DNA from: Akanthomyces muscarius
Taxonomy: Eukaryota; Ascomycota; Sordariomycetes; Hypocreales; Cordycipitaceae
Direction of reading: 5' to 3'
Assembly (NCBI RefSeq): GCF_028009165.1
Contig: NC_079241.1
Location: forward strand, 6,200,001 to 6,264,000
Length of the DNA stretch: 64,000 bases
Made by a program: the position numbers and the translations under genes. Under the pieces are notes generated by a model. That model did not search any database and was not told the DNA's origin. It saw only the letters and a list, made by a program, of their open reading frames with translations. This document shows, piece after piece, positions 2,379-62,545 of the stretch. How positions within the stretch are numbered: position 1 is the stretch's first letter; each line of letters begins with the position of its first letter.

Positions 2379-4202
2379 TCAACTCTTCGCTTTGGCGTTT
2401 GCCTTGTCATCCAAGCGAATGCCCGAACCCCCCGACCAGTCCGCCATTGTCGCGCCGCGACGAAAGTGCGAGGCTAGATGCTGCGCCCTCTCCTCCCAGC
2501 TGTTCATCGACACGTTGCAGAAGCCGCACCGGCTCTGGAGCTTGTCCTGCTTGTGCTGGAGCAGCGCCAGGTCCGGCTTCCACCCGTCCCACTTGTTGCA
2601 GTGGTGGAACTTGTGCAGGTGCTGCCAGAGGTGGTCTTTGCGCGTGAATGTCCGCTCCGAGGCGGGTCGCTCCGCGCAGGTCTGAAACTCGTGCGACTGG
2701 ATGTGGTCGTGTGTGGGCGATGGTTCGCCGCAAAAGATGCACTCCGGGTGTGTTTGGTTGACGCGCCATACCAGGAAGGACTGGTCTGGCGGCAGCGGGA
2801 CCCTGCAGATCCAGGAATCGAGCCCAGGGAGGTGAATGGAGCGCTCGTGCCGCACCCAGTCGTACCTTTTGCGAAAGCTCTGGAGGCAGAATGTGCATTG
2901 AAAGGTGGTATTCTTGGCTCGTGTGCCGACGGTCGGGCTCTTGTTACTGACAGAGTCTCCGTCGACAGAGTTGTTCGCAGAGTAAGGAACAAAGGTAAAG
3001 TCTGCCGATTGGTGAGAGTGCGCAGAGCCACCAAAGCTGGTGGATGATGCTCTGTTAAAAGACCTTCGACGGTAGTGGCTAGATTCACCACTGGCCGAGG
3101 ACACCGAGCCATCCCTCCCACTACCATAGCTGCCAAAATAGTCGGACGCCGATTGCGGCGACCGATTAAGAGCCCGTTCAATAGCCGAGGCCGAGGCAGC
3201 CTCGTCATCTGGGGGAGAGTTTCGCCAGCGCTCCATGGGCGACATGCTGTCCAGCATGGAGCGCGGCATGGGCGATCCCTGGCGATGGACTTTGGCGCTG
3301 TTGCTGAAGAGCGACTGAGCTGAGAGCCTGTGCCGCCGGCGAGCGTTGGCAAACCAGTTGATGACTTGGGTCCGGCTGAGGCCGCACTGGCTGGCCAGGT
3401 CCGCCTTGTCATCCTCGGAGGGGTAAGGGTGGTCCAGGTGGCACGCAAACCAGTGCGACAAGGGCCGCGTCTTCTTGGCCGTGCGGGTGCTGGCTCGCTT
3501 CGAGGTGACGACCTTGAGGGGGACGGGCCCGTCACCATGGGGATCCTCCTCGAGGTTTCCGAGGTTGTTCTCCTCGCTGACGCCGTGAAGATGGCCGATG
3601 ACGGGCCGGGACGTCTCAAAGCTGGACGCCTGCCGTTTGCCGCGCTCCGCCAGGCTGCAGTCGCGGAACAGCGCGACGCAGCTCGAGCAAGAGGTGATGG
3701 GGTTGGGGTTGGCGTCGGTTGTCTGCAGGATCAGACACTGCAGACGCTGACGCTTGCACTGTAGACAGGGCTCCGGCGGGCGACAGGCGCCGTTCTTGAC
3801 AAAAAACTCGTCGATGATGGCGGCGTTTTCGACGCCAGGAAACGGGCGTGGCGGCGTCGTCTCAGCAGCAACGCTATTAGAAATGTCCCAGTCTATTCCA
3901 GCAGCATCGGGCAGGAAGCCGGCGTCGTCGTCGTCGTCGAGTTGGAGAGCCGGGTCCGCAGCGAAGAAGACATTGTCAAAGTTGTGGCTCAGATCCGTGG
4001 TGGTGACAAAAGAGGGGTCAAGAAACATGGAATCCAAGTCATCGTGAGCAGAAGCCAGCGGCGGCATCAGACTGTCGTTGTCGAGGGAGGCAAAGGCGTG
4101 GTGATGCTGCTGCTGCTGGTGCGCGGCCGTGTTCGTGTCCGGCGCGGCGCCGGCATCGCCAAGTGGGAAGAAGAGGTCGGTATCTGCACGCAGAGGGTCC
4201 AT
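2379..4202 (-). CDS. Homeodomain/C2H2 zinc finger transcription factor with a Zn2Cys6-like cluster
   Basis: A single exon encodes 607 aa from the ATG at 4202. The N-terminal third is Gln/His- and Asp-rich, like an activation region. A cysteine cluster follows with spacing C146-x2-C149-x6-C156-x15-C172-x2-C175-x6-C182, the Zn2Cys6 pattern with a long middle loop. A TALE-type homeodomain covers about 247-292 and contains the recognition helix motif VINWFANARRRHR. After a Ser-rich linker there is a clear C2H2 finger at 435-457 and further Cys/His clusters at 488-534 and 559-579. Homeobox plus C2H2 proteins are known in filamentous ascomycetes; targets cannot be inferred here. About 2.3 kb of upstream DNA is free of genes, which suits a regulated promoter. 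Confidence 0.85.
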   Translation of the reverse strand: MDPLRADTDLFFPLGDAGAAPDTNTAAHQQQQHHHAFASLDNDSLMPPLASAHDDLDSMFLDPSFVTTTDLSHNFDNVFFAADPALQLDDDDDAGFLPDAAGIDWDISNSVAAETTPPRPFPGVENAAIIDEFFVKNGACRPPEPCLQCKRQRLQCLILQTTDANPNPITSCSSCVALFRDCSLAERGKRQASSFETSRPVIGHLHGVSEENNLGNLEEDPHGDGPVPLKVVTSKRASTRTAKKTRPLSHWFACHLDHPYPSEDDKADLASQCGLSRTQVINWFANARRRHRLSAQSLFSNSAKVHRQGSPMPRSMLDSMSPMERWRNSPPDDEAASASAIERALNRSPQSASDYFGSYGSGRDGSVSSASGESSHYRRRSFNRASSTSFGGSAHSHQSADFTFVPYSANNSVDGDSVSNKSPTVGTRAKNTTFQCTFCLQSFRKRYDWVRHERSIHLPGLDSWICRVPLPPDQSFLVWRVNQTHPECIFCGEPSPTHDHIQSHEFQTCAERPASERTFTRKDHLWQHLHKFHHCNKWDGWKPDLALLQHKQDKLQSRCGFCNVSMNSWEERAQHLASHFRRGATMADWSGGSGIRLDDKANAKAKS

Positions 4203-6493
4203 CCCGGAGGGGCGACGCGAGGCAGAACGGCTGGGGACCAGGACAGAGTTCGAGACCAGCGAAGGTATGGACTCCGAGTAAGTAGAGTGAAAAGACGATG
4301 ATGAAAATTGAAAACGCCTACATGGTCACCAGGTAGTTGGAGTGTGTAGGAGGGAAGAAGACGTGAGCCTGAGCCCCGGTGCCGGCCCGGAACGATTGCT
4401 GACCAAAAAGAGAGTTACAGTGCTCTTCAGGTGCCTGTTGGCGCTGTCTTGGCGGGCTTCTACAGTGGGTTCAAGGTACCATATATTAGCGCTCGGAATT
4501 ACCTGGAGGCACTGTAAGGTACCGACAGAGTTTATGCGCCGCAACCTGCATACAGCTACTCGTTCTGTCCTCTCAGACGGCGCAAGTAAAATAGTACAAA
4601 AATACTTGCAATCAATACCAGCTCTACAAGAATGCCTCTGTACTTTTTCTTCTTTTTCTTTTTCAAAGCTTTGTCTTATGCACAAGCCTACTGGTAGCAC
4701 GTCCTTCCTGCAGCTGCCCGCCCACCTGACCCCATGCGTTGGAGAGCTGGTGGATGTTTATAGTGGACTGCATGCTGTTAGCAGCGGGTCACAGTGGGCG
4801 CAGCTCCCCTGTAGCCGGTAGGCCGAGACCGCTAAACCTTGATGCGAGGCTAGCATTGTTCCATGGAAGTAACGCGGAAGTCAGCTAGGCGGCAACTCGA
4901 AACTCCAATGCATCGAATCGGCGAGCTAAAAACAGTTCTTACTCTCATGTCCACTGCATGCTGCAAGGTGAATCCTGATATCTCGAGGCCAACTCTACCC
5001 GAAGCGAGTCAAGTTGTTCCTTCCTTGGCTGGTCTACTTGGACAGCTTATGCGATTGCCCTACTCAGCCCAACAAAACGGTGAGAATCTGCAATCTCCAT
5101 CTATATTTATCTTGCGATCAACCGCATGATAGTACAGGGGTTGATAAGCAATCGAGCCATGGGTCCAATCATCTACCGTTCAGCATATCAGCATATCAGC
5201 ATATCAGCTAATGACGATAGCAACTATGCAAGCCCCATTCACTGCTCAACTCAAATCAAGCTGTAGAAACGCTCCAAATCATGTCCATACAGACGTCGAC
5301 TATGTAGTCCCAGCGATTGCACTGCTCGCCGCCGGGACGCCTGATTACGGCTGAGTTTGCGTGGCGTCTAGTATGCATTTGTCTCACTAGTCATCACCGA
5401 GCCGGCACTTTGGGGACAGTTCGAGACTCAGCGACGCCAGGGAATCCGCTATCGTATAAGTCATGTCGAGGGCTTACAATCGCCGAGACTTTTGACAGTT
5501 GACGAGTGAGTCTTGCTGCGTCATGTTAGCCGCGCTGGAAGCTACCTGCCTGCCAGCCGCTTTTGAAAGTTAGAGTAATCTGTCGTTTCGTTTCCGCAGA
5601 ATTCGTATGCCTGTCAAGACGCTTCTGTTTCGTATAAGGCACTTCTCCTCTTCCCCATGGCGGTTCACCTATTAAGCCATGACCCCGGATCTTGTCTCAA
5701 CGACCCGCGCCAGTCTGCTTCCAAGACTTTTGCCATCTAGTGTTCCGAACTTCCGCGCTGCAGTTTGTCGCCATCAAAAAGTCGCGATTTGAGCTCCTGC
5801 GCCAACCAATTTCGTTTCTCGCCTTGTTACCCTTTTTAGTCGGCCTTGCAGCGCAGCATTTCAGCCACGTCCCCGAACGGCGGCGGCGGCGGCGTCGTTG
5901 TCGTGACTCATGTATCCACGCCCCCGGCAAATGTCCTATGCCACACACATCTGCCCTGGCTTAGCCTCCCCTTAGTAATTCGCTGAATCGGGGCAATAAA
6001 ATGCACTTTCCCCAACGGTTGTCCGCGGGGGGCGAACACCAGCTAAGACAAGCGTGCGAATCAAAAGACGAGAAACTAAGGGCAGGGGTCTGGTGCGCCG
6101 GCGTGTGGATGGAAGACTGTCGCAAACCATGAACAAGACCAAGTTTTTTTTTTTTTTGGAAAGCGCATAGGAACCTGGGATACTGACACTGGAAGAGAAG
6201 AAAAGACGTGGGCTCACCCTCTATATATGTCAAGCGCTCAGACTAGTACCGCGACCCAGCAGAGGGCGCGAAACAAGCTGTAACAAGAGGGCGCTACTGG
6301 GCGCGGTGAAGCTTTACCAGACAACAAGCTGGAGGGCGCGCGCAAAGTGGTTTTGAAAAGCATCGAAATTGTAGCCATATTGTCACTGTAGAACACAAAG
6401 CCTCCTTCACGTCAATTGATACTGTCCGCTCTACATTTCTCTCCGACACCGTGTAACTGCCCGTCGTGTAGCTCGACCCGACGACACCCCGTC
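4203..6493. promoter_or_regulatory. 2.3 kb divergent intergenic region
   Basis: This is shared upstream DNA of the homeodomain regulator (leftward) and the lyase-deacylase fusion (rightward). It holds 3.5 copies of CAGCATAT at 5181-5208, a CGG-rich run near 5880-5895 and a T15 tract near 6146-6160. The longest open frames start at non-ATG codons and show no coding bias. Confidence 0.4.
5181..5208. repeat. Short tandem repeat (CAGCATAT)3.5
   Basis: Three and a half exact copies of the 8-mer CAGCATAT occur in the upstream region of the homeodomain regulator. No function is evident. Confidence 0.8.
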
Positions 6494-8818
6494 ATGCCGC
6501 CGCCCTCTTCCCCGCACCGACGGCCGCTGCACTTCAACGCCTTCGCAGAGGATTGGGTGGCGCCGCCGAGCAAGGATCTCCCAGACATTGTGCGCTTCCA
6601 CCAGCGGTTTCCGGGCTACTCGCCGACGGCCCTCGTCGGCCTGCCCGCCGTCGCGCAGGACGCGGGCGTCGGCGCCGTCTACATCAAGAACGAGTCGGAC
6701 CGCTGCGGCCTGCCGGCCTTTAAGATCCTCGGCGCCTCGTGGGGCACCTACCGGGCGGTCACGAAGCGTCTCGACCTGCCGCTCAGCACCACGTTTGATG
6801 CCATCCACCAGGCGCTGTCGGCGTCGCCGCTGACGCTCTACGCCGCGACCGACGGCAACCACGGCCGGGCGGTGGCGCGCATGGCGGCGCTGTTTGGCAT
6901 CGCTGCGGAGGTTCATGTGCCATGCTGCATGAAGTCAGACATCATCAAGCTGATTCGTCAGGAGGGTGGGAAAGTCGTCGTGTCAAGACGAGACTATGAT
7001 GCTGCTGTCCAAGAGGCCTTTGTTGCCTCGCAGCACTCACAAGGGCTGTATATCCAGGACTGCGCATTCGGTGACTATACAGAAGTACCTCAGGTTAGTA
7101 GCTGCCAACCTGATCTTTCGATTCTCACCTTTGCTGAATACCTGTAATAGTGGATTGTCGAAGGCTACGAGACAATGATGCATGAAATCGATGGGCAACT
7201 GGGTGAAATGTCACCAACTTTGGTCATTGCACCTGTCGGCGTCGGCTCTTTTGCGCAGTCTGTTGTGGCGCATTACAAAACGCAGCACGGTGCACGTTCC
7301 AAAGTCATGTCCGTAGAGCCAGACACGGCAGCCTGTCTCTGGAAGCGGCTCGTTCGAGGCGAAGAAACCTCTGTTCAAAGCGCACCTACCATTATGGCGG
7401 GCCTGGAATGCTCAACCGTGTCAGAGTCGTCCTGGCCCATCTTGCAACAAGGCATTGATGTCAGCGCCACGGTTTCCGACCATGAGGCCCATGAAGCCTG
7501 TGAAACGCTGCACAAACTGGGCGTTGCCGCTGGACCCTGCGGAGCTGCCTCATTGGCTGCGCTGCGGCGTTTAGGCCCCGAGGAGAAATCGCTTCTGGGT
7601 CTAGATAAAGACTCCGTTGTTGTCCTGCTCTCGACAGAAGGACTACGGTCGTACGACGTCCCTCGTGATGTCTCCGACGACGACCCCGTGGCTCTAACAC
7701 GGGCTCTGGTCCGGATAGACTCCACAAATCCAGCCCTGGGTTCGCAACCTGGCCCCGGCGAAACAGAAATTGCCAAGTTTATCTGCTCGTGGTTTGAACA
7801 TCGCGATATCGATGCTCATTGGGTAGAGCCAGTCAAGGGCCGGCCGTCTGTCGTCGGTGTGGTAAAGGGCAGCGGAGGCGGCAAGCGCCTATTGCTAAAC
7901 GGACACGCCGACACAGTAACTCTTCTGGGATACGACGGAGATCCTCTCGATCCCAAAATTGAAAACGGAAAACTATATGGGCGTGGCTCTGCGGACATGA
8001 AATCCGGCCTAGCGGCGCAAATGGTCGCGGCGGCCGACATTAAAAAGCTGCAGCTGGCCGGCGACGTCATCGTAACAGCCGTTGCCGACGAAGAGCTAGA
8101 GAGCCTGGGGACAGTCAGCGTCCTCGCAGCCGGCTGGCGAGCCGACGCCGCGATTGTCAGCGAGTGCACCGACATGGCCATAACCCGCGCTCACAAGGGT
8201 TTCGTGTGGCTTGAGATTGACGTCCATGGCGTGGCGGCGCATGGTTCGCGGCCCGATCTGGGATACGACGCCATCGCAAAGTCAGGCTACGTCTTAGTCG
8301 CGCTCGATCGCTACGCGGCAGAACTGCAGCAGAGAGAAGCCGATCCGGCAGTCGGGCCGCCCAGCGCTCACGCATCTCTCATACACGGCGGCGAGGAAGT
8401 GTCCTCGTACCCGGCCAAGTGCACCATAACACTCGAGCGAAGAACCGTCGCCAACGAGAGCCCAGCGACTGTCGAGCGTGAGATACGGGACATACTGGAC
8501 GAGATCGCAGCCGCTACGCCGGGGTTCAAATACGACCTCCGGGCCACGTTTAGTCGCCCACCATTCCACATGACAGAAGACGCTGCGCTCACCCAACTCG
8601 TCCGGAAGCATGCCGAGAGAGTCACGCACGGCGAGCCAAGGATTTCTGGGGCTCCGTACTGGACAGACTCTGCGCTGCTGCTTGAGGCCGGTATTCCGAC
8701 CATCCTTTTCGGGCCGCGCGGTGAAGGGTTTCATGCCAAGGAGGAGTTTGTATATACCGAATCTATTGTACAGACGGCGCAAATTCTTACGCAAATTGCC
8801 AAAGAATTTTGTGCTTGA
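6494..8818 (+). CDS. Diaminopropionate ammonia-lyase fused to M20 deacylase/peptidase
   Basis: Two exons, 6494-7093 and 7151-8818, encode 755 aa; the intron is 57 nt (GTTAGT donor, GCTGAAT branch, TAG acceptor, phase 0). Residues about 10-395 form a PLP fold-type II lyase. The Schiff-base lysine is K77 in LPAFKILGASWG, the cofactor loop is TDGNHGRA, and PVGVGSF and PCGAASL follow; this is the pattern of YgeX-type 2,3-diaminopropionate ammonia-lyase, which makes pyruvate and two ammonia. Residues about 400-755 form an M20 zinc amidohydrolase with GHADTV, ADMKSGLA, the DEELES acid pair, the HGVAAHGSRPD dimer-face histidine and a C-terminal GFHAKEEF. All expected metal ligands appear present. 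The 1.67 kb second exon crosses the domain join with no stop or splice signal, so the fusion is not an artefact of merging genes. In enterobacteria ygeX and the M20 gene ygeY are neighbours. The likely chemistry, removal of an acyl group and then elimination, is inference. An earlier in-frame TTG at 6416 was not taken as start. Confidence 0.85.
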
Positions 8819-8946: not shown

Positions 8947-10832
8947 TCACGCATACTCACGAGCATCAGCAGTCGCATCGTCTATCTTGTCCAGCGTTGG
9001 CAGCGGAGCAGTCAGCCCCAGCGACGCCGCAATATTAAACAGCCTCTGCTTCTCCTCGTGCGCAGCCGTGTCGCCAAAGATCTCGTCCATGTCCTCCAAG
9101 CTCTTGCCCTTTGTCTCCGGCACGCAAAAGTACGTAAACAGAAGCGCGAGCAGGCAAAAGGCCGCAAAGAAAATGTACGTGCCCCAGCCAAACGACTCGA
9201 GCATGTCCGGCGTCACCAGCCCGATGATGAAGTTGCACATCCACGTGCAGCTCGTCGTGATGGCCATGGCCTTGGAGCGGTTGCCCAGGTTGAAGATTTC
9301 AGACGGCAGCACCCAGCCAATTGGCGCAAAGGAGTAGGAAAAGTTAATGTCATAGATGTAGATGAAGGCGATGCCCACCCAGCCGGCCGCCGGATGGGCA
9401 GGCAGATCGTTTCCATAGGCACCTAGCATTGCGCCGACAATCACCAGGGAAATAAACGTTCCAGCGGCGCCGCACATGAGAAGAGGTCGGCGTCCGACTC
9501 TGTCGATGAGGAATAGGGCAGGTAACGTCGACAACGTGTTGACGATGCCGTAGACGCCAGTCGCCAGCAACGAAGTCGTGCCACCCGTCAGCCCAAGCTG
9601 TCCAAAGATGGTAGGGGCAAAATATATCAAGGCGTTACAGCCCATGAATTGCTGGAAGAAACCAATCAAGCAGCCAATTGCCAGGCGCCGAAACGCAGGC
9701 TTCGAAGAGACCAGGCTCCCGTACTGCGCAAAGTACAGCGACGCCCCGGTCTTGCCTGGGAACCGATCCCTGGCAATGGACTCGTCGAATAACACTTCAG
9801 CCTTGATGGCGAGGTACTCGTCCCGTAGGCACTCCGAATCGGGATGCTCGGCGCGGCGCAGCTGCGCGAGGGCACGCAGCGCCGCGTCTTCCTGGTGGCG
9901 CATGAGGTGGTAGCGCGGCGACTCCGGGTAGAAGAGCATGCCGACGCCCAGGACCAGCGCCGGCACAATCTGCAGCGCAAACGGCACGCGCCAGGCCGCC
10001 TGGCTCTGGCCACCAGGACATCGCTGCCCCGGCGGGCCGACATCGTATCGCGGGTCGAACGTTGGTTTGCCGGGGGTGCCGCCCGTGTACGGAATGCCCG
10101 GGGCGCATCTGGTGCCGCCAATGTACTGCGTGCCGTACTCGAGCCAGTAGCTAACCAGAATACCGAGCGTGATGCTCACTGTTCACCCAGACATTAGTCC
10201 GCAGTCTTTCCTATACTGGTTGCCCACACCAAACCTACACTGCTGGAGCACGACCAGTGTTCCACGGATGCCCGCCGTCGACACCTCGGACATGTACATG
10301 GGCACAATCATGGTCAGCATGCCCACGGCGAAGCCTGCCACCGCGCGCCCGCCAAATAGCAGGCCCGTCGTCGAGGCCGCCGCCTGCAGCGCCGACCCGA
10401 GCGTAAACACCGCCACGGCCGCCAGCATGGACCCCTTGCGGCCGAAGCGGTCCGCGACGGGCCCGTTGATGAGGGATCCGAGCCACGCCGCCAGCAGGAG
10501 CGTCGACACGAACCAGCCCTTGAAGCCGCTGTCGAGGTAGATGCGCGGGAACAGCGCCGCAAACGACTCCATCTCCAGCACGCCCGAGACGACGCCCTGG
10601 TCATAGCCAAAGAGAAACCCGCCCAGGGACGCAAACTACCAAAAAAACCGCAAGTCAGCTATCTTTTCAGTAGTACGTCAAATGTGATGTGTGTGACAAA
10701 AGCGAGAAAAAGACAGTCAGGGCTCGGGTCTTGGGCAGCACGTACCGCTGAAAGACCGAAAATGTACGGGTTGTCGAGGAGCTGCCTCCAGACGCCCCGA
10801 GGCTTCGATTGAGCGTTTGCGCTAGAAGCCAT
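8947..10832 (-). CDS. MFS hexose/sugar transporter
   Basis: Three exons, 10746-10832, 10239-10635 and 8947-10178, encode 571 aa. The introns are 110 nt (phase 0, GTACGT) and 60 nt (phase 1, GTAGGT). The ATG at 10832 lies in CACCATGG, a strong context; an in-frame ATG at 10847 is possible but weaker. The first helix region has GGFLFGYDQGVVSG. Sugar-porter signatures are RFGRKG after helix 2, PESPRYH in the central loop, DRVGRRPLL after helix 8 and PETKGKSLE after helix 12. These place it with plasma membrane proton-linked sugar porters (SP family). The extracellular loop with GGTRCAPGIPYTGG is long, as in quinate/high-affinity glucose transporters. The substrate cannot be set. It converges on the lyase fusion, with 128 bp between stops. 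Confidence 0.88.
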
Positions 10833-47600: not shown

Positions 47601-47721
47601 ATACCAAGAGCGTCGACAACAACTCTTCGTAATCCACCACAACGAAAAAGAGGTGCTCGCTTGAGTCTCATAACCAAATCGAACTCACCCTTTTCAAAAC
47701 CCAAACCAAACACAGAGTACA
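44615..47721. promoter_or_regulatory. 3.1 kb intergenic region upstream of proline dehydrogenase
   Basis: No gene was recognised. The last 280 bp before the PUT1 ATG are pyrimidine- and adenine-rich (CTTCTTCTTTTTTTCTTC near 47465) and look like a long 5' leader. The open frame at 46186-46620 starts at GTG and has no coding bias. Short homopolymers (C, T, G) are frequent. Confidence 0.4.
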
Positions 47722-49224
47722 ATGCACTCCGCCCCTGCACGAGGGCTGGTTCGCCTGCCCGTGCACCGGGCCCTTCCCGTCATCGTCTCCTCCATTGGAG
47801 TTTCGACGCCATCATGCGTCGGCTTCAATGAGAAGAACCGCTTCCCGGCTGCTATCCAGCGCCGTTCCATCCACAACTCCGAGCGCATGGCCATCAGCTC
47901 CTCGGACCGCCGCACCAACACTCTTGCTGAGCTGCCCACCGTCGATCCTACCACTCAACCACCCAGCTCCGAGCCCAAGAGCGCGCCTCTGTCGGTTCTG
48001 CCACTGTCCATGATTGTCCGCTCCCTTCTCACCACCGTCGTCTCTTCTTCTCCCGTCCTCCTACCTCCTTCGCTCCGCATCATGTCTGTCCTTGCCAACA
48101 CTCGCAACCCCATCCTCAACCCTGACAAGAACCCTCTTCTCCGCTTCTTCCTCAAGAAGACCTTCTACGCCCAGTTCTGTGCTGGCGAGAGCCCCGCCGA
48201 AGTTCAGGCCACCATTTCCCGCCTCAAGAACATTGGCTTCAGCGGCGTCATCCTTGGCTACGCCAAGGAAGTCGTGCTGACTCAGGACCAGGCCGTTGCC
48301 GTTGCCGCCGAGGACCAAGGAAAGGAGACTGCTGCCGATATTGCCAACGAGATTGAGCCCTGGGCTCACGGCACCCTCGAGACTGTCGCCCTCGCCGAGC
48401 CTGGTGACTATGTCGCCCTCAAGTTCACGGGCGCTGGCCGCCTTGCCCTCTACCAGCTTTCGCAGAATAACGAGCCTTCCCCTTACCTGTACAAGTCCAT
48501 TGACGCCATCTGCGCTCTTGCCCACCAGCGCGGTGTCCGTCTTCTGTTTGACGCTGAGCAGGACGCTCTTCAGGATGGCATCGACAGCTGGACCATGACC
48601 TTTGCTCGCAAGTACAACACCTCTCCCGAGACTGCCACCGTCTATGGCACATACCAGGCATACAAGAAGAAGACTCCTGCCGTCATCGCTCGCCACTTGG
48701 CCGAGGCCAAGGAGGGCGGCTTCAGCCTTGGTGTCAAGCTGGTCCGTGGTGCCTACCTCAACTCTGACCCCCGCCACTGCTTCTGGGAGACGCAGCAGGG
48801 CACCGATGACTGCTACAACGGTATTGCTGCTGGTATCCTCACCCGCCACTGGGGTCCTATGGTCGAGGGCAAGGGTAAATTCCCCAACGCCCACGTGGTC
48901 CTTGCTACCCACAACGCCGAGTCTGTTCGCCGTGCCCGCGCCATCTGCGATGCTGGCGGTGCCAAGTCGGGCATTGCTTTTGCTCAGCTTCAGGGCATGG
49001 CTGATGAGGTCAGCTGCGAGCTTGTCGAGGCCGGCCACGCCAACAAGTCCTCTGACCTTCCCGTCTTCAAGTACCTCGTCTGGGGAACCACTGGCGAGTG
49101 TATGAAGTACCTCCTGCGCCGTGCAAACGAGAACAAGGACGCCGTTGGCCGCACCCGCAGCGGTCGTGATGCCATGTGGTCCGAACTCGTTCGCCGCTGC
49201 AAGACTGCTGTCGGTTTTGCTTAA
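47722..49224 (+). CDS. PUT1: Proline dehydrogenase (proline oxidase), mitochondrial
   Basis: A single exon encodes 500 aa. The N-terminal 60 residues are Arg/Ser-rich like a presequence. The body is the PRODH TIM barrel: PLLRFFLKKTFYAQFCAGES at its start, then RLLFDAEQD, GVKLVRGAYL with the flavin/substrate-binding Arg and Tyr, LATHNAESVRRA, and a C-terminal VFKYLVWGTTGECMKYLLRR block with the paired arginines that grip proline. It oxidises proline to pyrroline-5-carboxylate using FAD in the inner membrane, the first step of proline use as a nitrogen source. Codons are strongly C-biased, producing a 407-codon open frame on the other strand that is not a gene. No P5C dehydrogenase or proline permease is nearby. 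Confidence 0.94.
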   Translation: MHSAPARGLVRLPVHRALPVIVSSIGVSTPSCVGFNEKNRFPAAIQRRSIHNSERMAISSSDRRTNTLAELPTVDPTTQPPSSEPKSAPLSVLPLSMIVRSLLTTVVSSSPVLLPPSLRIMSVLANTRNPILNPDKNPLLRFFLKKTFYAQFCAGESPAEVQATISRLKNIGFSGVILGYAKEVVLTQDQAVAVAAEDQGKETAADIANEIEPWAHGTLETVALAEPGDYVALKFTGAGRLALYQLSQNNEPSPYLYKSIDAICALAHQRGVRLLFDAEQDALQDGIDSWTMTFARKYNTSPETATVYGTYQAYKKKTPAVIARHLAEAKEGGFSLGVKLVRGAYLNSDPRHCFWETQQGTDDCYNGIAAGILTRHWGPMVEGKGKFPNAHVVLATHNAESVRRARAICDAGGAKSGIAFAQLQGMADEVSCELVEAGHANKSSDLPVFKYLVWGTTGECMKYLLRRANENKDAVGRTRSGRDAMWSELVRRCKTAVGFA

Positions 49225-52607: not shown

Positions 52608-55600
52608 ATGGATTTAGACTTGGATGTCGCTCTTGACCTTGACCCTCGCCCCGGCGTTGGCCCGGGCGGCTCAGGCTCAGGCTCAGGCTTCGCAGCGTCA
52701 ACGATTCAGCCAAACGGCTGCCACAGCCTCGTCGTTTCCAACGCCCCCAAGAGGCCGTCGCTCGCTGTCGATTCTTCGCTCGTTCAACAGCTCGTCTGGC
52801 CGTCCAACCTGAATCCCTTTGCGAACCCCCGCCATTCGATCGACGTCACTGCAACCACCACCGACGCCTCCTCCTATCAGCCTGTGCTGCGACCTTGTGC
52901 GCCGCCTGGTCTCACCCTCGACGTCAGCGCCGCTGCGCTCCTGTCCTCCCCAGACTCGATTGCCTCCTCGGCCGCCAGCGCGGCCTCGTCGCACTTTAAC
53001 CTCGGGCCCTGCTTCAGCGCGAGGGGCTCTGTGAGCTCTGCGCTGACCTCTCCCGCCTCTGCTGGCAGCGGCATCTCGCCAGGTTCCTGCGCCCGACCCA
53101 GAACGCAGAAGTCCAGCATGTCTGGCCGCGCATCGGCCAAACGGCCAGTTGAGCGCGGGGGAAGCAGCGGCGAGGATAGCCCTGCGCAGTCTGCAGCTGG
53201 AAGCCAGAGTGGTGCCAAACCAAAGGTCGCTCGTGTAGAGCGACCGACAGAGGACTTTTCGTCGGTGGTCAAGAACCGCCTGCAATCTTATACACGCACC
53301 GGCCAGGCTTGCGACAGATGCAAGGTACGTCGCCGCTGCGGGCCATGGCAGCTTGCGCTGCATCCCGTGCCACCAACTCTTTTCATGCGCTAATCATTGT
53401 CTTTATAGGTTCGAAAGATTCGATGCGATGCCCTCCCCGAAGGCTGCTCTCATTGCATAAATCTAAACCTCGACTGCTACGTCACCGACAGAGTCTCTGG
53501 CCGCACTGAACGCCGCGGCTACATGCAAGAGCTTGAACGAGATAAAAATGGCATGGTCTCCCACATTCGGCAGCTTGAGAAACTCTTGCTAGAGAACGGA
53601 GTCCAAGTCCGACCCTGGGTAGAAGAAAAGCTGGACTCTGATGCCGATGCCGAAACCTCAGAGGCGCTCCCCAAAGAGTCTCCGACGTCCGACTGGGCGC
53701 AGGTAGGATGTCTCTGGGTAAAGAACTATGCAAAAAAGCCTTCCTACTCTCCACGATTCCCGCGCAGCAAACTGGAAAGCCGTTCAGAGTCCAAAGGAAC
53801 GGTTGCGGGCCGCGCCGTTGCGCCGCTCAATTCGATGCGCGGCACCAAACTCACCTTTCTCGGCACCACGATTGACACAAGCTCATTCCCGATGCCAGAT
53901 GTTGATGAGCCCGAAGACCCCACCGATACAACGCCTTTATACAACAAGTCTTCGCATGCCTTTCTTCAGACCACAGCAGGCGTCAATCCTCCCGTCCAGG
54001 TCGAGCTTCCGTCGCGGCAAGAAGCTTTCACGTACGCGGACTGGTACTTCATGACAATGGGTGCATTCATTCCTGTTCTGCATCAGCCTACTTTCATGGC
54101 ATTGCTTGCGCGTGTATATGATGAGCCGGACTTTCATCCGACGGCCGCGCAGATTGCGCAGGTCCACATGGTATTTGCGACGATCCTATTTCAATATGGC
54201 GTTCGAAACTGGCAGCAAGCTGACCAGCGCTATCATCTCAACGATCTCTCCAACAAGCACTTTCACTTTGCTGTATCCAAATGGCATCATTTGCTGCTGT
54301 CGAGGGATCTGGAGGCTGTGCAGGCTTTGGCCCTGATTGCATCTCACGTTCGGCAGTTCCCTAAGCTCGGGTGCGGATCTATTGTTGCGCATGCGGTGCT
54401 ACAGCGCGCAATAGACTTCAACCTGCATCGAAATCTTCAGCAAAAGGGCGAGAAGACCAACCTCACCAACGAGATGCGCAAAAGGGTGTGGTGGAGCATT
54501 CTAATGACCGTCGTCTCCATTACTGGCCGTCGAGGGTATCCTGTTCCCATTGCCGTCGAGGAAATCGACGCCGAGTTTCCAGAGCCGATTGCAGATGAGT
54601 TACTCGCCGAAGAAGGCATTGATACGTCACGCACTATCCCCTGTCCCTTTGAAGCTGCCATCGCTGGATTCAAGATCACACCGATTTTCATGGAAGTCTT
54701 TTCCAACATCCACAGCGTTCGAGGCGATCCTGACAGCTATGTCTCTGTTGTTGAAGCCCTGGAGGAGCAGCTTCAGCAATGGGAGTCTGATTTGCCCGAT
54801 TCGCTCAAGCTCTCCGAAGATGCCACTGTGGATATACAAATGCTAGCGCCTTTGTTCATGCGCACGTACGTGCTGGAAGTCCGTCTGTCGCTTCGCCACC
54901 CCGGCGTGGCCATGACAACAGAGAAACAGATCATTGCAGACAATACCCGCATTTGTTCAGAGACTGGTCGAGAATTCCTGCATGTTGCGCAAAAGATCCA
55001 GCAGCTCAAATGCTTGGATACGACTTGGTACACAGTCTCGTTTGCCTCTGCATGCATATTTGCCATGTTGGTTGCACAATGGGAAAAGCGCTTCGAGACC
55101 ACAGAAGACGAATTCGTTTCCTTGCAAAAAGACATGGCTAGCTGGATGTCCATCTTGGAAGACATTGGTGCAATTCTTGGTACGTATTGTTTGACCTACT
55201 CCCCTACTCTCTCAGAATGCAGCTAACACCCCTCGCTAGATGCCAAAACGAGCATTGCAGATGAAATTCGCCGAATCATGGAGCGAACACTGAGCTGGAT
55301 CCGACATGACATGGATCACAAAGAAAACGACACGAAACAGACGGCAGCGAAACCAATTTCTGGCAAAGGCAAGCCGTTGCCCAAGTCTCAGCCAAAGGGC
55401 CGCCGTCGTTCAGACTCTCTTCCTCGGAAGCAATCACGGAAGCCAAGCCAGCCACAAAATGAAGAGAACTCCCATGCGACTCCAAAGGCTACCCATCAAG
55501 TTCTGCCACAGGCAGTGGCTCAAGCGCCAGTTGTCACTCAAGCACCAGCTGGGGAGCTTGTGAGCCCCACGGACGCAGATGCACCAAGCAAGGGCTATTA

Positions 55601-60720: not shown

Positions 60721-62545
60721 TTACTTGAGGAGAGCGTTCTTGCCAGCAGCCAAGCTCTTGGCAAGGGCACCAGAGAGACCAAACTGTGAGCCAATACCAT
60801 TGACACGGTGAGTGGAGTTGAGGTTCTTGACAACCACCATCTGGAAGCAAGTGGCGGAACCCTGTCGAGAGGCAATGACGGACCAGGCGAGGAAGAGCTC
60901 CCAGATCTGCGAATAGTTAGTGACGGTTCAGTCAGTAGAAACGAGAGCAAGCAACATACTCTGTACCAGCGCTGGCCATACTTGGCGGTAATCTCAGCGC
61001 CGTTGCCGACCCAGTTGCGGTACCATCTCCAAAGAGTAGCAGAGTAGTGAACACCGACAGTGTCGACGCTGCGAACGGTTAGCTTTCTAGGCTGAATGCT
61101 GCGAACCCTTTATAAATTTGACGTACCTCTTGACCTCGAAGCCGGCCATCTCGAGAGATCGAATATAGTTCCAGAGAGGAGTAGAAGCATCGGCACCACG
61201 GAAAATGTACTTGTTCAGGTAAAGACCCCAAATGAAGTCCTCGTACTGCCAAGCCTGGCGAAGACCGGAAAGCTGGACGTACATAAGACCATCATCCTCG
61301 AGCATGTCGTAGCATTGGCGGAAGAAAGTAGTAAGCTTGCGAATACCAACGTGCTCACCCATCTCGATCTGAGAGATCTTGTTGTACTTGACCTTGGGAG
61401 CGTCACGGTAGTCCATGCATAGAATGCGAGACTGCTCCTCGGGGATACCAGCCTTGCGCAAAACATCGTTGCCCCAAGCAGCACCGTTCTCAGCAATAGT
61501 GATACCGGTGACCTTGGCGCCGTAGTTGAGACTGGCAAATTTGGCGAGCGTACCCCAGCCGGAGCCGATGTCGAGCATAGTGTCACCCTCCTTGAGCTCG
61601 AGCTTCTCGCAGACGACAGCCAACTTGTTGTCCTGGAGCTCCTCGAGAGTTTCCTCACGAGTAGGGTCCGAGATAATACCCGAGGTGTAGATCATGCGAG
61701 GGCCGAGGAACCAGGCGTAGTGGTCGTTGCCGTTGTCGTAGTTGGGGCGAATCTGCTCCATGTCCTGGTCCTTGGTGTGGAAGAGCACATCGGAAGCAAA
61801 AGTACCGAAGATGAACTTGAAGAGATCGAGGGTGAAGCTGAAGTTGGACCAGTCGTGGCGGTACTCGAGGACATCGAGGATGTCGCCGTTGGCATCAACC
61901 TTGCCGTCGACGTACATCTCGGCGAAGGTCTGGATAGGGATCTTGGAGCGGCCTCTCCACTTGGCCTTGTCGGCAGCATTCTTGAAAGTGATGTAGGACT
62001 CGACGGGACGGCCGGGGAGCTTTGCCTGCTCGTTGATGCGAGGGCTGAAGGCGGACTTGAAGGCCCAGTAGCCGATGAGGACGGGGAGGAGGGTGATCAA
62101 GCCGAAGAAAATCTTGGTCTTGATGCCGCCACCGATGAGGCGGGCGAGGAACCAGGGGACACCAATGAGCAGACCGAGAAGGACGAGGTTGGAGAAGCTA
62201 TCGTTTCCAGGACCTTCAGCGGGCAGCGGGGCATTGTGAATCGTGGGGAACTAGAGTAGAGGAGGACGCGTTAGCAAAGAAGCTGATCCGGAGGCAACGA
62301 AGTGTAACCCGTTGATTCAATTGGATCGTCTGCAAGATGGAGAGGGCGGATTCTGTGCGCAACCTGTGTGGCGACGGTAGGCAGAGCTGTTCGGGACGGG
62401 TAGAGGGGGCAAAGGCGGCATGGGTAAATGAGCTCACATCAGTGACAGGAACACCGCAGTCGTGGGCCTCGAAAGACGAAGGAGCCTGCTTAGGTGTCTT
62501 GATGTAATTGATATTCTCCTCGAGATGAGGAGCCTTGGACGCCAT
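60721..62545 (-). CDS. Sphingolipid C9-methyltransferase
   Basis: Four exons, 62438-62545, 61127-62250, 60960-61068 and 60721-60906, encode 508 aa; introns are 187, 58 and 53 nt. After a short cytosolic start (MASKAPHLEENINYIKTPKQ) come two membrane helices (LVLLGLLIGVPWFLARLIGG, then FGLITLLPVLIGYWAF). The rest is a cyclopropane-synthase-type methyltransferase: the SAM loop is MLDIGSGWGTLAKF, followed by GITIAENGAAWG and LCMDYRDAPKVKYNKI. The late exons carry VHYSATLWRWYRNWV and LAWSVIASRQGSATCFQMV, as in fungal Mts1/MtsA. The enzyme adds the C9 methyl branch to the sphingoid base of fungal glucosylceramide, after delta-8 desaturation, in the ER. Glucosylceramide methylation affects hyphal growth and plant defensin sensitivity. 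The first intron is unusually long for the window. Confidence 0.94.

Follow-up and report, generated by a model that had tools for sequence, protein, structure and literature searches.

The lyase-M20 fusion gene of Akanthomyces muscarius

Among the closest described counterparts of the gene analysed here are YgeX and YgeY of Escherichia coli, a pyridoxal phosphate (PLP)-dependent diaminopropionate ammonia-lyase (DAPAL) and an M20-family hydrolase, whose separate genes lie side by side in the reductive urate cluster. Li et al. (2025) report that the two enzymes convert albizziin (3-ureido-diaminopropionate) to pyruvate (PMC12507026), a commentary treats the order of ureido removal as unsettled (PMC12990295), and a further paper of 2025 reports that fungi make L-diaminopropionate and that a Fusarium peptide contains an N-acetylated residue of it (PMC12751119), so acylated forms exist in fungi. 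Among titles and the starts of abstracts, mostly outside the subscription literature, we found no paper on fungal diaminopropionate catabolism or on a fungal fusion of such enzymes. In a 64,000-nucleotide (nt) stretch of the A. muscarius genome (hereafter the window, to whose positions all coordinates refer), a single gene encodes a PLP lyase and an M20 hydrolase end to end.

The first-pass annotation of this DNA had described one frame of 755 amino acids (aa) whose two domains join within a single exon of 1.67 kb, with a PLP lysine at K77 and a full set of metal ligands in the M20 half, and all of these points were borne out (Table 1 and below). The protein is identical along its entire length to annotated A. 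muscarius LMH87_007106. Because the domain boundary lies inside exon 2, the join is independent of the gene model. Alignments of the predicted structure to solved structures leave practically no linker between the lyase fold and the M20 fold (residues 376-755), and the single-chain model of the whole fusion is confident (mean predicted local distance difference test 90.3, predicted template modelling score 0.88).

The same fusion is found in other fungal genomes; it is widespread in Pezizomycotina rather than peculiar to A. muscarius. Searching with the complete protein yielded 682 homologues, and both Pfam domains are present in all 120 of those listed, including five shorter ones, which are environmental open frames of 545-548 aa. 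We aligned the remaining 115, which have lengths of 690-1300 aa. All ten key residues (K77, D/E120, D189, H452, D454, D482, E514, E515, E538 and H728) are intact in 108 of them. Mean pairwise identity among the fusions is 61% in the lyase half and 65% in the M20 half, so both halves have been held. Named carriers, judged by the lineages of four examples that were checked, include Sordariomycetes, Eurotiomycetes, Dothideomycetes and Leotiomycetes. Trichoderma reesei QM6a has an orthologue (P0035). The window gene is thus confirmed as a real lyase-M20 fusion, neither a chance product nor an artefact of annotation. That it might nonetheless be an artefact or a pseudogene is a notion we can practically dismiss at the level of sequence, given the join within one open exon, the 115 full-length homologues with their conserved key residues and the confident single-chain model, and we found nothing in favour of it.

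Some homologues deviate from this pattern. One full-length fusion, from Pseudogymnoascus sp. 05NY08 (P0117), has glutamate in place of K77 with its M20 ligands intact, and is possibly, on its sequence, an M20-only enzyme. The gene models of six Fusarium homologues (P0076, P0077, P0093, P0094, P0101 and P0108) contain an additional PF20253 domain, which may reflect either a merger of gene models or a genuine third domain.

Table 1. Features of the fusion gene and of its surroundings in the window
Feature	Positions	Strand	Details
Fusion gene	6494-8818	+	755 aa, one intron
Exon 1	6494..7093	+	600 nt; residues 1-200, N-terminal part of lyase domain
Intron	7094..7150	+	57 nt, GT...AG, inside lyase domain; retention gives in-frame stops
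Exon 2	7151..8818	+	1,668 nt with stop; residues 201-755; 555 open codons spanning the domain join
PLP lyase domain (Pfam PALP, residues 40-360)	6611..7630	+	165 bits; lyase fold is residues 1-376
K77, PLP lysine	6722..6724	+	aligned with E. coli YgeX K77; K in 114/115 fusions
D120	6851..6853	+	counterpart of YgeX D120; the 115 fusions have 75 D, 37 E and 3 other
D189	7058..7060	+	aligned with YgeX D189; D in 114/115 fusions, gap in 1
Domain junction, residue 376	7676..7678	+	structure-alignment ranges stop or start at about 376 in most rows
Peptidase_M20 catalytic domain (Pfam, residues 448-751)	7892..8803	+	105 bits
M20_dimer lid domain (Pfam, residues 547-654)	8189..8512	+	59 bits
H607 to E616	8369..8398	+	the two residues best separating lyase-linked from other ArgE/DapE M20s
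Homeobox-KN transcription factor	2382-4325	-	open frame upstream of the fusion
Major facilitator superfamily sugar transporter	8950-10182	-	open frame about 130 bp downstream of the fusion, opposite strand
Proline dehydrogenase	47674-49221	+	Pfam-matching frame
Zinc-cluster transcription factor	53409-55223	+	Pfam-matching frame
Cytochrome P450	57209-58591	+	Pfam-matching frame
Cyclopropane-synthase-like methyltransferase	61090-62250	-	Pfam-matching frame

The lyase half resembles diaminopropionate ammonia-lyase

Judged by sequence and predicted fold, residues 1-376 are a DAPAL-like PLP domain (EC 4.3.1.15 class). This half is 32% identical to E. coli YgeX, and the YgeX residues K77, D120 and D189 all have aligned counterparts in the window protein, as do two cysteines, C265 and C291; position 120 is D or E in 112 of the 115 fusions. 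D189, like D120, is counted among the catalytic acids of the lyase. Lys77 and Asp120 are named as potential catalytic residues in the accessible part of an earlier report (PMC4000059). The predicted model matches solved DAPAL structures, with the holo forms leading by about 9 Z units. Against the DAPAL model NF006058 the window lyase scores 265.4 bits, about 11 short of the cut-off of 276, while of four other fusions three exceed it, with 280-296 bits, and the fourth falls short with 270.8. It also falls below the YgeX equivalog TIGR03528 (194.8 bits, cut-off 532).

This narrow shortfall, together with the D/E variability of position 120 in fungi, could mean that the PLP half acts on other β-substituted or hydroxy amino acids, such as serine, threonine or β-substituted alanines, whose N-acyl forms the M20 half would deacylate; serine/threonine dehydratases and serine racemases have the same fold and also match. 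We consider this unlikely, as the dehydratase models reach at most 83.4 bits among the 25 NCBIfam rows shown, the holo DAPAL structures are clearly ahead, and the three catalytic positions and both cysteines of YgeX are present.

The M20 half is of the ArgE/DapE type but is not YgeY

The metal ligands H452, D482, E515, E538 and H728 and the catalytic acids D454 and E514 are all present in the M20 half and align with those of ArgE, DapE and YgeY, the last of which has D at position 515. The score against the ArgE/DapE subfamily model TIGR01910 exceeds its cut-off (233.2 versus 217.6 bits), whereas the scores against the YgeY model TIGR03526 (103.5 versus 321.5 bits), the ArgE model TIGR01892 (179.3 versus 297.7 bits) and the DapE equivalog models shown fall below theirs. 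Identity to the E. coli proteins is 26% for ArgE (104 bits), 26% for YgeY (84 bits) and 25% for DapE. We rejected orthology with YgeY on the failed TIGR03526 model and on an identity of 26%, which is no closer than that to ArgE. The analogy with YgeX and YgeY drawn in the first-pass annotation consequently stands as far as its genomic logic is concerned, but does not extend to the orthology of the M20 half.

In the genome of A. muscarius the fusion is present as a single copy, and the next M20 match is 30% identical. An M20 of ArgE/DapE type, 30% identical to the fusion M20 half, lies codirectionally beside pieces of a TIGR01879-family amidase (200.7 and 98.2 bits) at G000:C3:869639-872329 on the minus strand (viewed as L004, L008 and L101); by sequence, this appears to be a second amide-hydrolase pair.

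Adjacent lyase and M20 genes in actinobacteria

We scanned one genome from each of 84,980 bacterial and archaeal species with ten of twelve fungal lyase halves (P0117 and P0057 were omitted) and kept the best 80 loci. Nearly all belong to Actinomycetota; the exceptions seen were a Chloroflexi, a Chlorobi and an unclassified bin. A fungal-type M20 is present at 26 of the 80 loci, a count from which a length filter removed a 51-bit fragment at L066, and lies within 3 kb of the lyase in 25. The two genes form same-strand, lyase-first pairs at 24 loci, two others (one on the opposite strand, one a broken match) being skipped. The M20 start is at most 60 nt from the lyase stop in 21 of the 24 pairs; the genes overlap by 4 nt in 13, and share a frame in two. 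No lyase-M20 fusion was found among the 27 bacterial loci examined, all of which have separate frames, nor in a wider check of 144 lyase-matching loci, many of them repeat views of the same place. On these sequences, the closest bacterial counterpart that we found is an actinobacterial lyase-M20 pair whose M20 belongs to a clade other than that of YgeY. A LysR-type regulator, mostly divergent, lies within 3 kb of the lyase at 29 of the 80 loci; beyond it and the hydrolases, recurrent neighbours offered no further clue in gene calls made with a coarse GC-position heuristic.

In the lyase tree, the fungal lyases form one clade (Shimodaira-Hasegawa-like approximate likelihood ratio test 99) amid actinobacterial ones, and in the M20 tree the fungal sequences likewise group together in one clade (100/99), next to the actinobacterial partners. 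These topologies suggest gene transfer from bacteria to fungi, but do not prove it, since resemblance to the fungal lyase was what selected the bacterial loci. Within both fungal clades, fusions are intermixed with genes that stand alone.

A distinct M20 clade linked to the lyase

Ten residues (R431, S433, H548, H607, E616, E629, R630, R669, W704 and D706) form a signature that is kept almost throughout the 22 bacterial partners and 28 fungal M20s, the fungal exceptions being one row at E629 and one at R630. The window protein carries all ten. The signature is mostly absent from ArgE, DapE and YgeY, although H548 is common to ArgE, R630 to YgeY and D706 to DapE. We searched 150 and 297 genomes with an alignment of M20s and read 60 loci from 121 table rows, some of them short at a contig end; lyase partners and fungal halves supplied the sequences of that alignment, and the signature had itself been selected on such partners. 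All 11 complete M20s with both H607 and E616 lie in a cluster with the lyase, while none of 48 other M20s, which do not have these two residues together, has a lyase within the adjacency window of about 1.5 kb. Four of the 11 loci (L150, L153, L180 and L183) come from genomes already represented among the first 80 loci, which leaves seven as a fair test. At L153 the lyase is part of an amidase fusion located further upstream (seen as L052 and L211). One locus that carries the signature where readable and is cut by a contig end (L184, from the same genome as L072) was excluded. Two M20s with eight of the ten residues and without H607 or E616 (L181 and L182) have no lyase nearby. By these sequence patterns, the M20 half is a member of a distinct, uncharacterised clade of lyase-linked M20s.

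The fusion could in principle serve stability, dimerisation or co-expression alone, with an unrelated substrate for the M20 half. Both halves do have stand-alone fungal versions, and M20 substrates are very diverse. However, the signature M20s accompany the lyase in all 11 complete bacterial cases, seven of them outside the first locus set, and different amide-hydrolase subfamilies occupy the same neighbouring position or are themselves fused to the lyase (see below), as would be the case if the lyase depended on an amide hydrolase. We regard an unrelated substrate as rather improbable.

Other amide hydrolases beside the lyase

A hydantoinase/carbamoylase-family amidase (TIGR01879) occurs at four of the 80 loci, all four with a fungal-type M20, and at six of the 11 signature loci, giving seven distinct clusters overall. 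The match is strong at L072 (370 bits, cut-off 204) and partial in two of the seven clusters (L033 and L210). In two actinobacterial genomes of one taxonomic order, the amidase and the lyase are joined in one unbroken open frame of about 790 codons (L052:9953-12259, in Acrocarpospora catenulata, and L212:4965-7253), with a signature M20 immediately downstream; L105 and L211 are the same place as L052. This is a bacterial counterpart of the fungal gene, in which a DAPAL-type lyase has likewise been fused with an amide hydrolase.

A DoeB2-like M20, a relative of N-acetyl-diaminobutyrate deacetylase, lies within 3 kb of the lyase at six of the 80 loci. In a sample of 22 lyase loci from one actinobacterial order, which overlaps the 80-locus set at L104, L108, L109, L113 and L128, a DoeB2-like M20D amidohydrolase stands beside the DAPAL-type lyase at 11 loci, and 15 have an adjacent M20-superfamily amide hydrolase of some kind. 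Such a neighbour was observed at L114/L133 and at ten loci among L115-L128, L114 having a carbamoylase-type amidase as well. The common theme of these gene arrangements appears to be a DAPAL-type lyase that is often fed by an amide hydrolase.

Proposed function

We favour, with moderate confidence, the reading that the fusion unmasks the rare amino acid diaminopropionate, by taking off an N-acyl or N-carbamoyl group, and then lyses it, all within a single protein. The C-terminal M20 half would hydrolyse the N-acyl or N-carbamoyl (ureido) group off a masked 2,3-diaminopropionate at a di-metal centre, in the manner of ArgE and DapE, and the N-terminal PLP half would carry out α,β-elimination of the free diaminopropionate to pyruvate and two ammonia. 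This order of steps, unmasking followed by lysis, is proposed by analogy with the action of YgeY and YgeX on albizziin, and there may be a hand-over between the two active sites. The gene itself may have arisen by end-to-end fusion of a lyase-M20 pair such as is found adjacent, and often overlapping, in actinobacteria. The first-pass annotation had likewise suggested deacylation followed by the lyase reaction; two intact active sites, the recurrent bacterial coupling of lyase with amide hydrolase and the albizziin precedent all speak for that suggestion, which is partly supported; a specific kinship of the M20 half with YgeY is not.

Several observations weigh against this proposal. The window lyase misses the DAPAL cut-off, position 120 is E instead of D in 37 of the 115 fusions, and one fusion (P0117) is without K77. 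Lyases and M20s of these clades also occur as separate proteins in fungi. In bacteria, 54 of the 80 nearest lyase loci have no match to this M20 clade, though some contigs end early, and at seven of the 22 loci from one order none of the M20-superfamily hydrolases sought lies next to the lyase, so that the lyase is probably able to function by itself.

The evidence on the identity of the mask is divided: the clustered or fused carbamoylase-type amidase points to a ureido group and the DoeB2-like neighbours point to acetyl, while the amidase-lyase fusion supports an amide-hydrolase reading without deciding between them. A narrower version of the proposal holds that the mask is specifically ureido, the substrate being albizziin (N-carbamoyl-diaminopropionate) or, after a first carbamoylase, 2,3-diureidopropionate; the fusion would then supply the final two reactions in a breakdown of ureido amino acids, in analogy to the reductive urate pathway of bacteria. 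In favour of this are the action of YgeY and YgeX on albizziin (PMC12507026) and the TIGR01879 amidase in seven distinct lyase clusters, fused to the lyase in two; two amide hydrolases plus a lyase is also the count proposed for E. coli and C. difficile. On the other side, the amidase match is partial in two of these clusters, and TIGR01879 also covers non-carbamoyl amidases. No called frame at ten amidase loci matched E. coli HyuA, in the same coarse gene calls, and DoeB2-like deacetylase relatives stand at other lyase loci. In A. muscarius, an exon-by-exon genome search for SsnA gave a 95-residue partial match of 25.7 bits, and we rejected the reductive urate pathway there on SsnA, the one component searched (YgfK, XdhD and HyuA were not); with no more than this partial match, that pathway is probably absent from the fungus. 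A specifically ureido mask is thus possible but doubtful.

More tentatively still in its scope, one may imagine that the M20 clade marked by H607, E616 and the eight other signature residues is a dedicated ureido- or acyl-diaminopropionate hydrolase, that the pair passed from actinobacteria to an ancestor of the Pezizomycotina and was fused there, and that in some actinobacteria a carbamoylase-type amidase was joined to the lyase in an independent event. We offer this combined scenario as a speculation that we would not expect to hold in full.

Under this scenario, many ascomycetes would be able to turn masked diaminopropionate into pyruvate and ammonia with one protein, possible sources being plant albizziin or oxalyl-diaminopropionate and microbial N-acetyl-diaminopropionate. 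Given a widespread fungal protein and a clear two-step prediction, the substrate of an orphan M20 clade can be put to the test in bacterial and fungal systems at the same time. The fusion would also be a clean case of a bacterial-type neighbouring gene pair kept as a fused enzyme.

Genomic surroundings

The neighbours of the fusion in the window, a homeobox factor and a sugar transporter, show no link to amino-acid or diaminopropionate catabolism. Further frames with Pfam matches are listed in Table 1.

Comparison with known systems

With E. coli YgeX and YgeY, the fusion shares the enzyme classes, their order (lyase then M20) and the lyase residues K77, D120 and D189; it differs in being one gene and in its M20 half, YgeY being of another clade. 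The ArgE/DapE family deacylases, acetylornithine deacetylase and succinyl-diaminopimelate desuccinylase, have the TIGR01910 match and all metal ligands in common with the M20 half, which nevertheless fails the ArgE and DapE equivalog models shown; R431, S433, H607, E616, R669 and W704 are absent from the aligned sites of E. coli ArgE, DapE and YgeY, where local misalignment is possible at about 26% identity. DoeB2-type relatives likewise place a relative of N-acyl diamino-acid hydrolases beside the lyase, but they belong to another M20 subfamily (TIGR01891; 311 of 550 bits against the DoeB2 model) and are not the partner fused in fungi. The actinobacterial pair, as in Lentzea, Planotetraspora and Arthrobacter (L028, L087 and L060), is 41-49% identical to the fungal lyase half and 44-53% to the M20 half, and has the same lyase-then-M20 order with the ten signature residues nearly always kept; unlike the fungal fusion, it consists of separate, often overlapping genes, sometimes with a carbamoylase-type amidase in the cluster. 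The fungal protein thus presents a known reaction pair, as we propose it, in a fused form and with a distinct, uncharacterised M20 clade.
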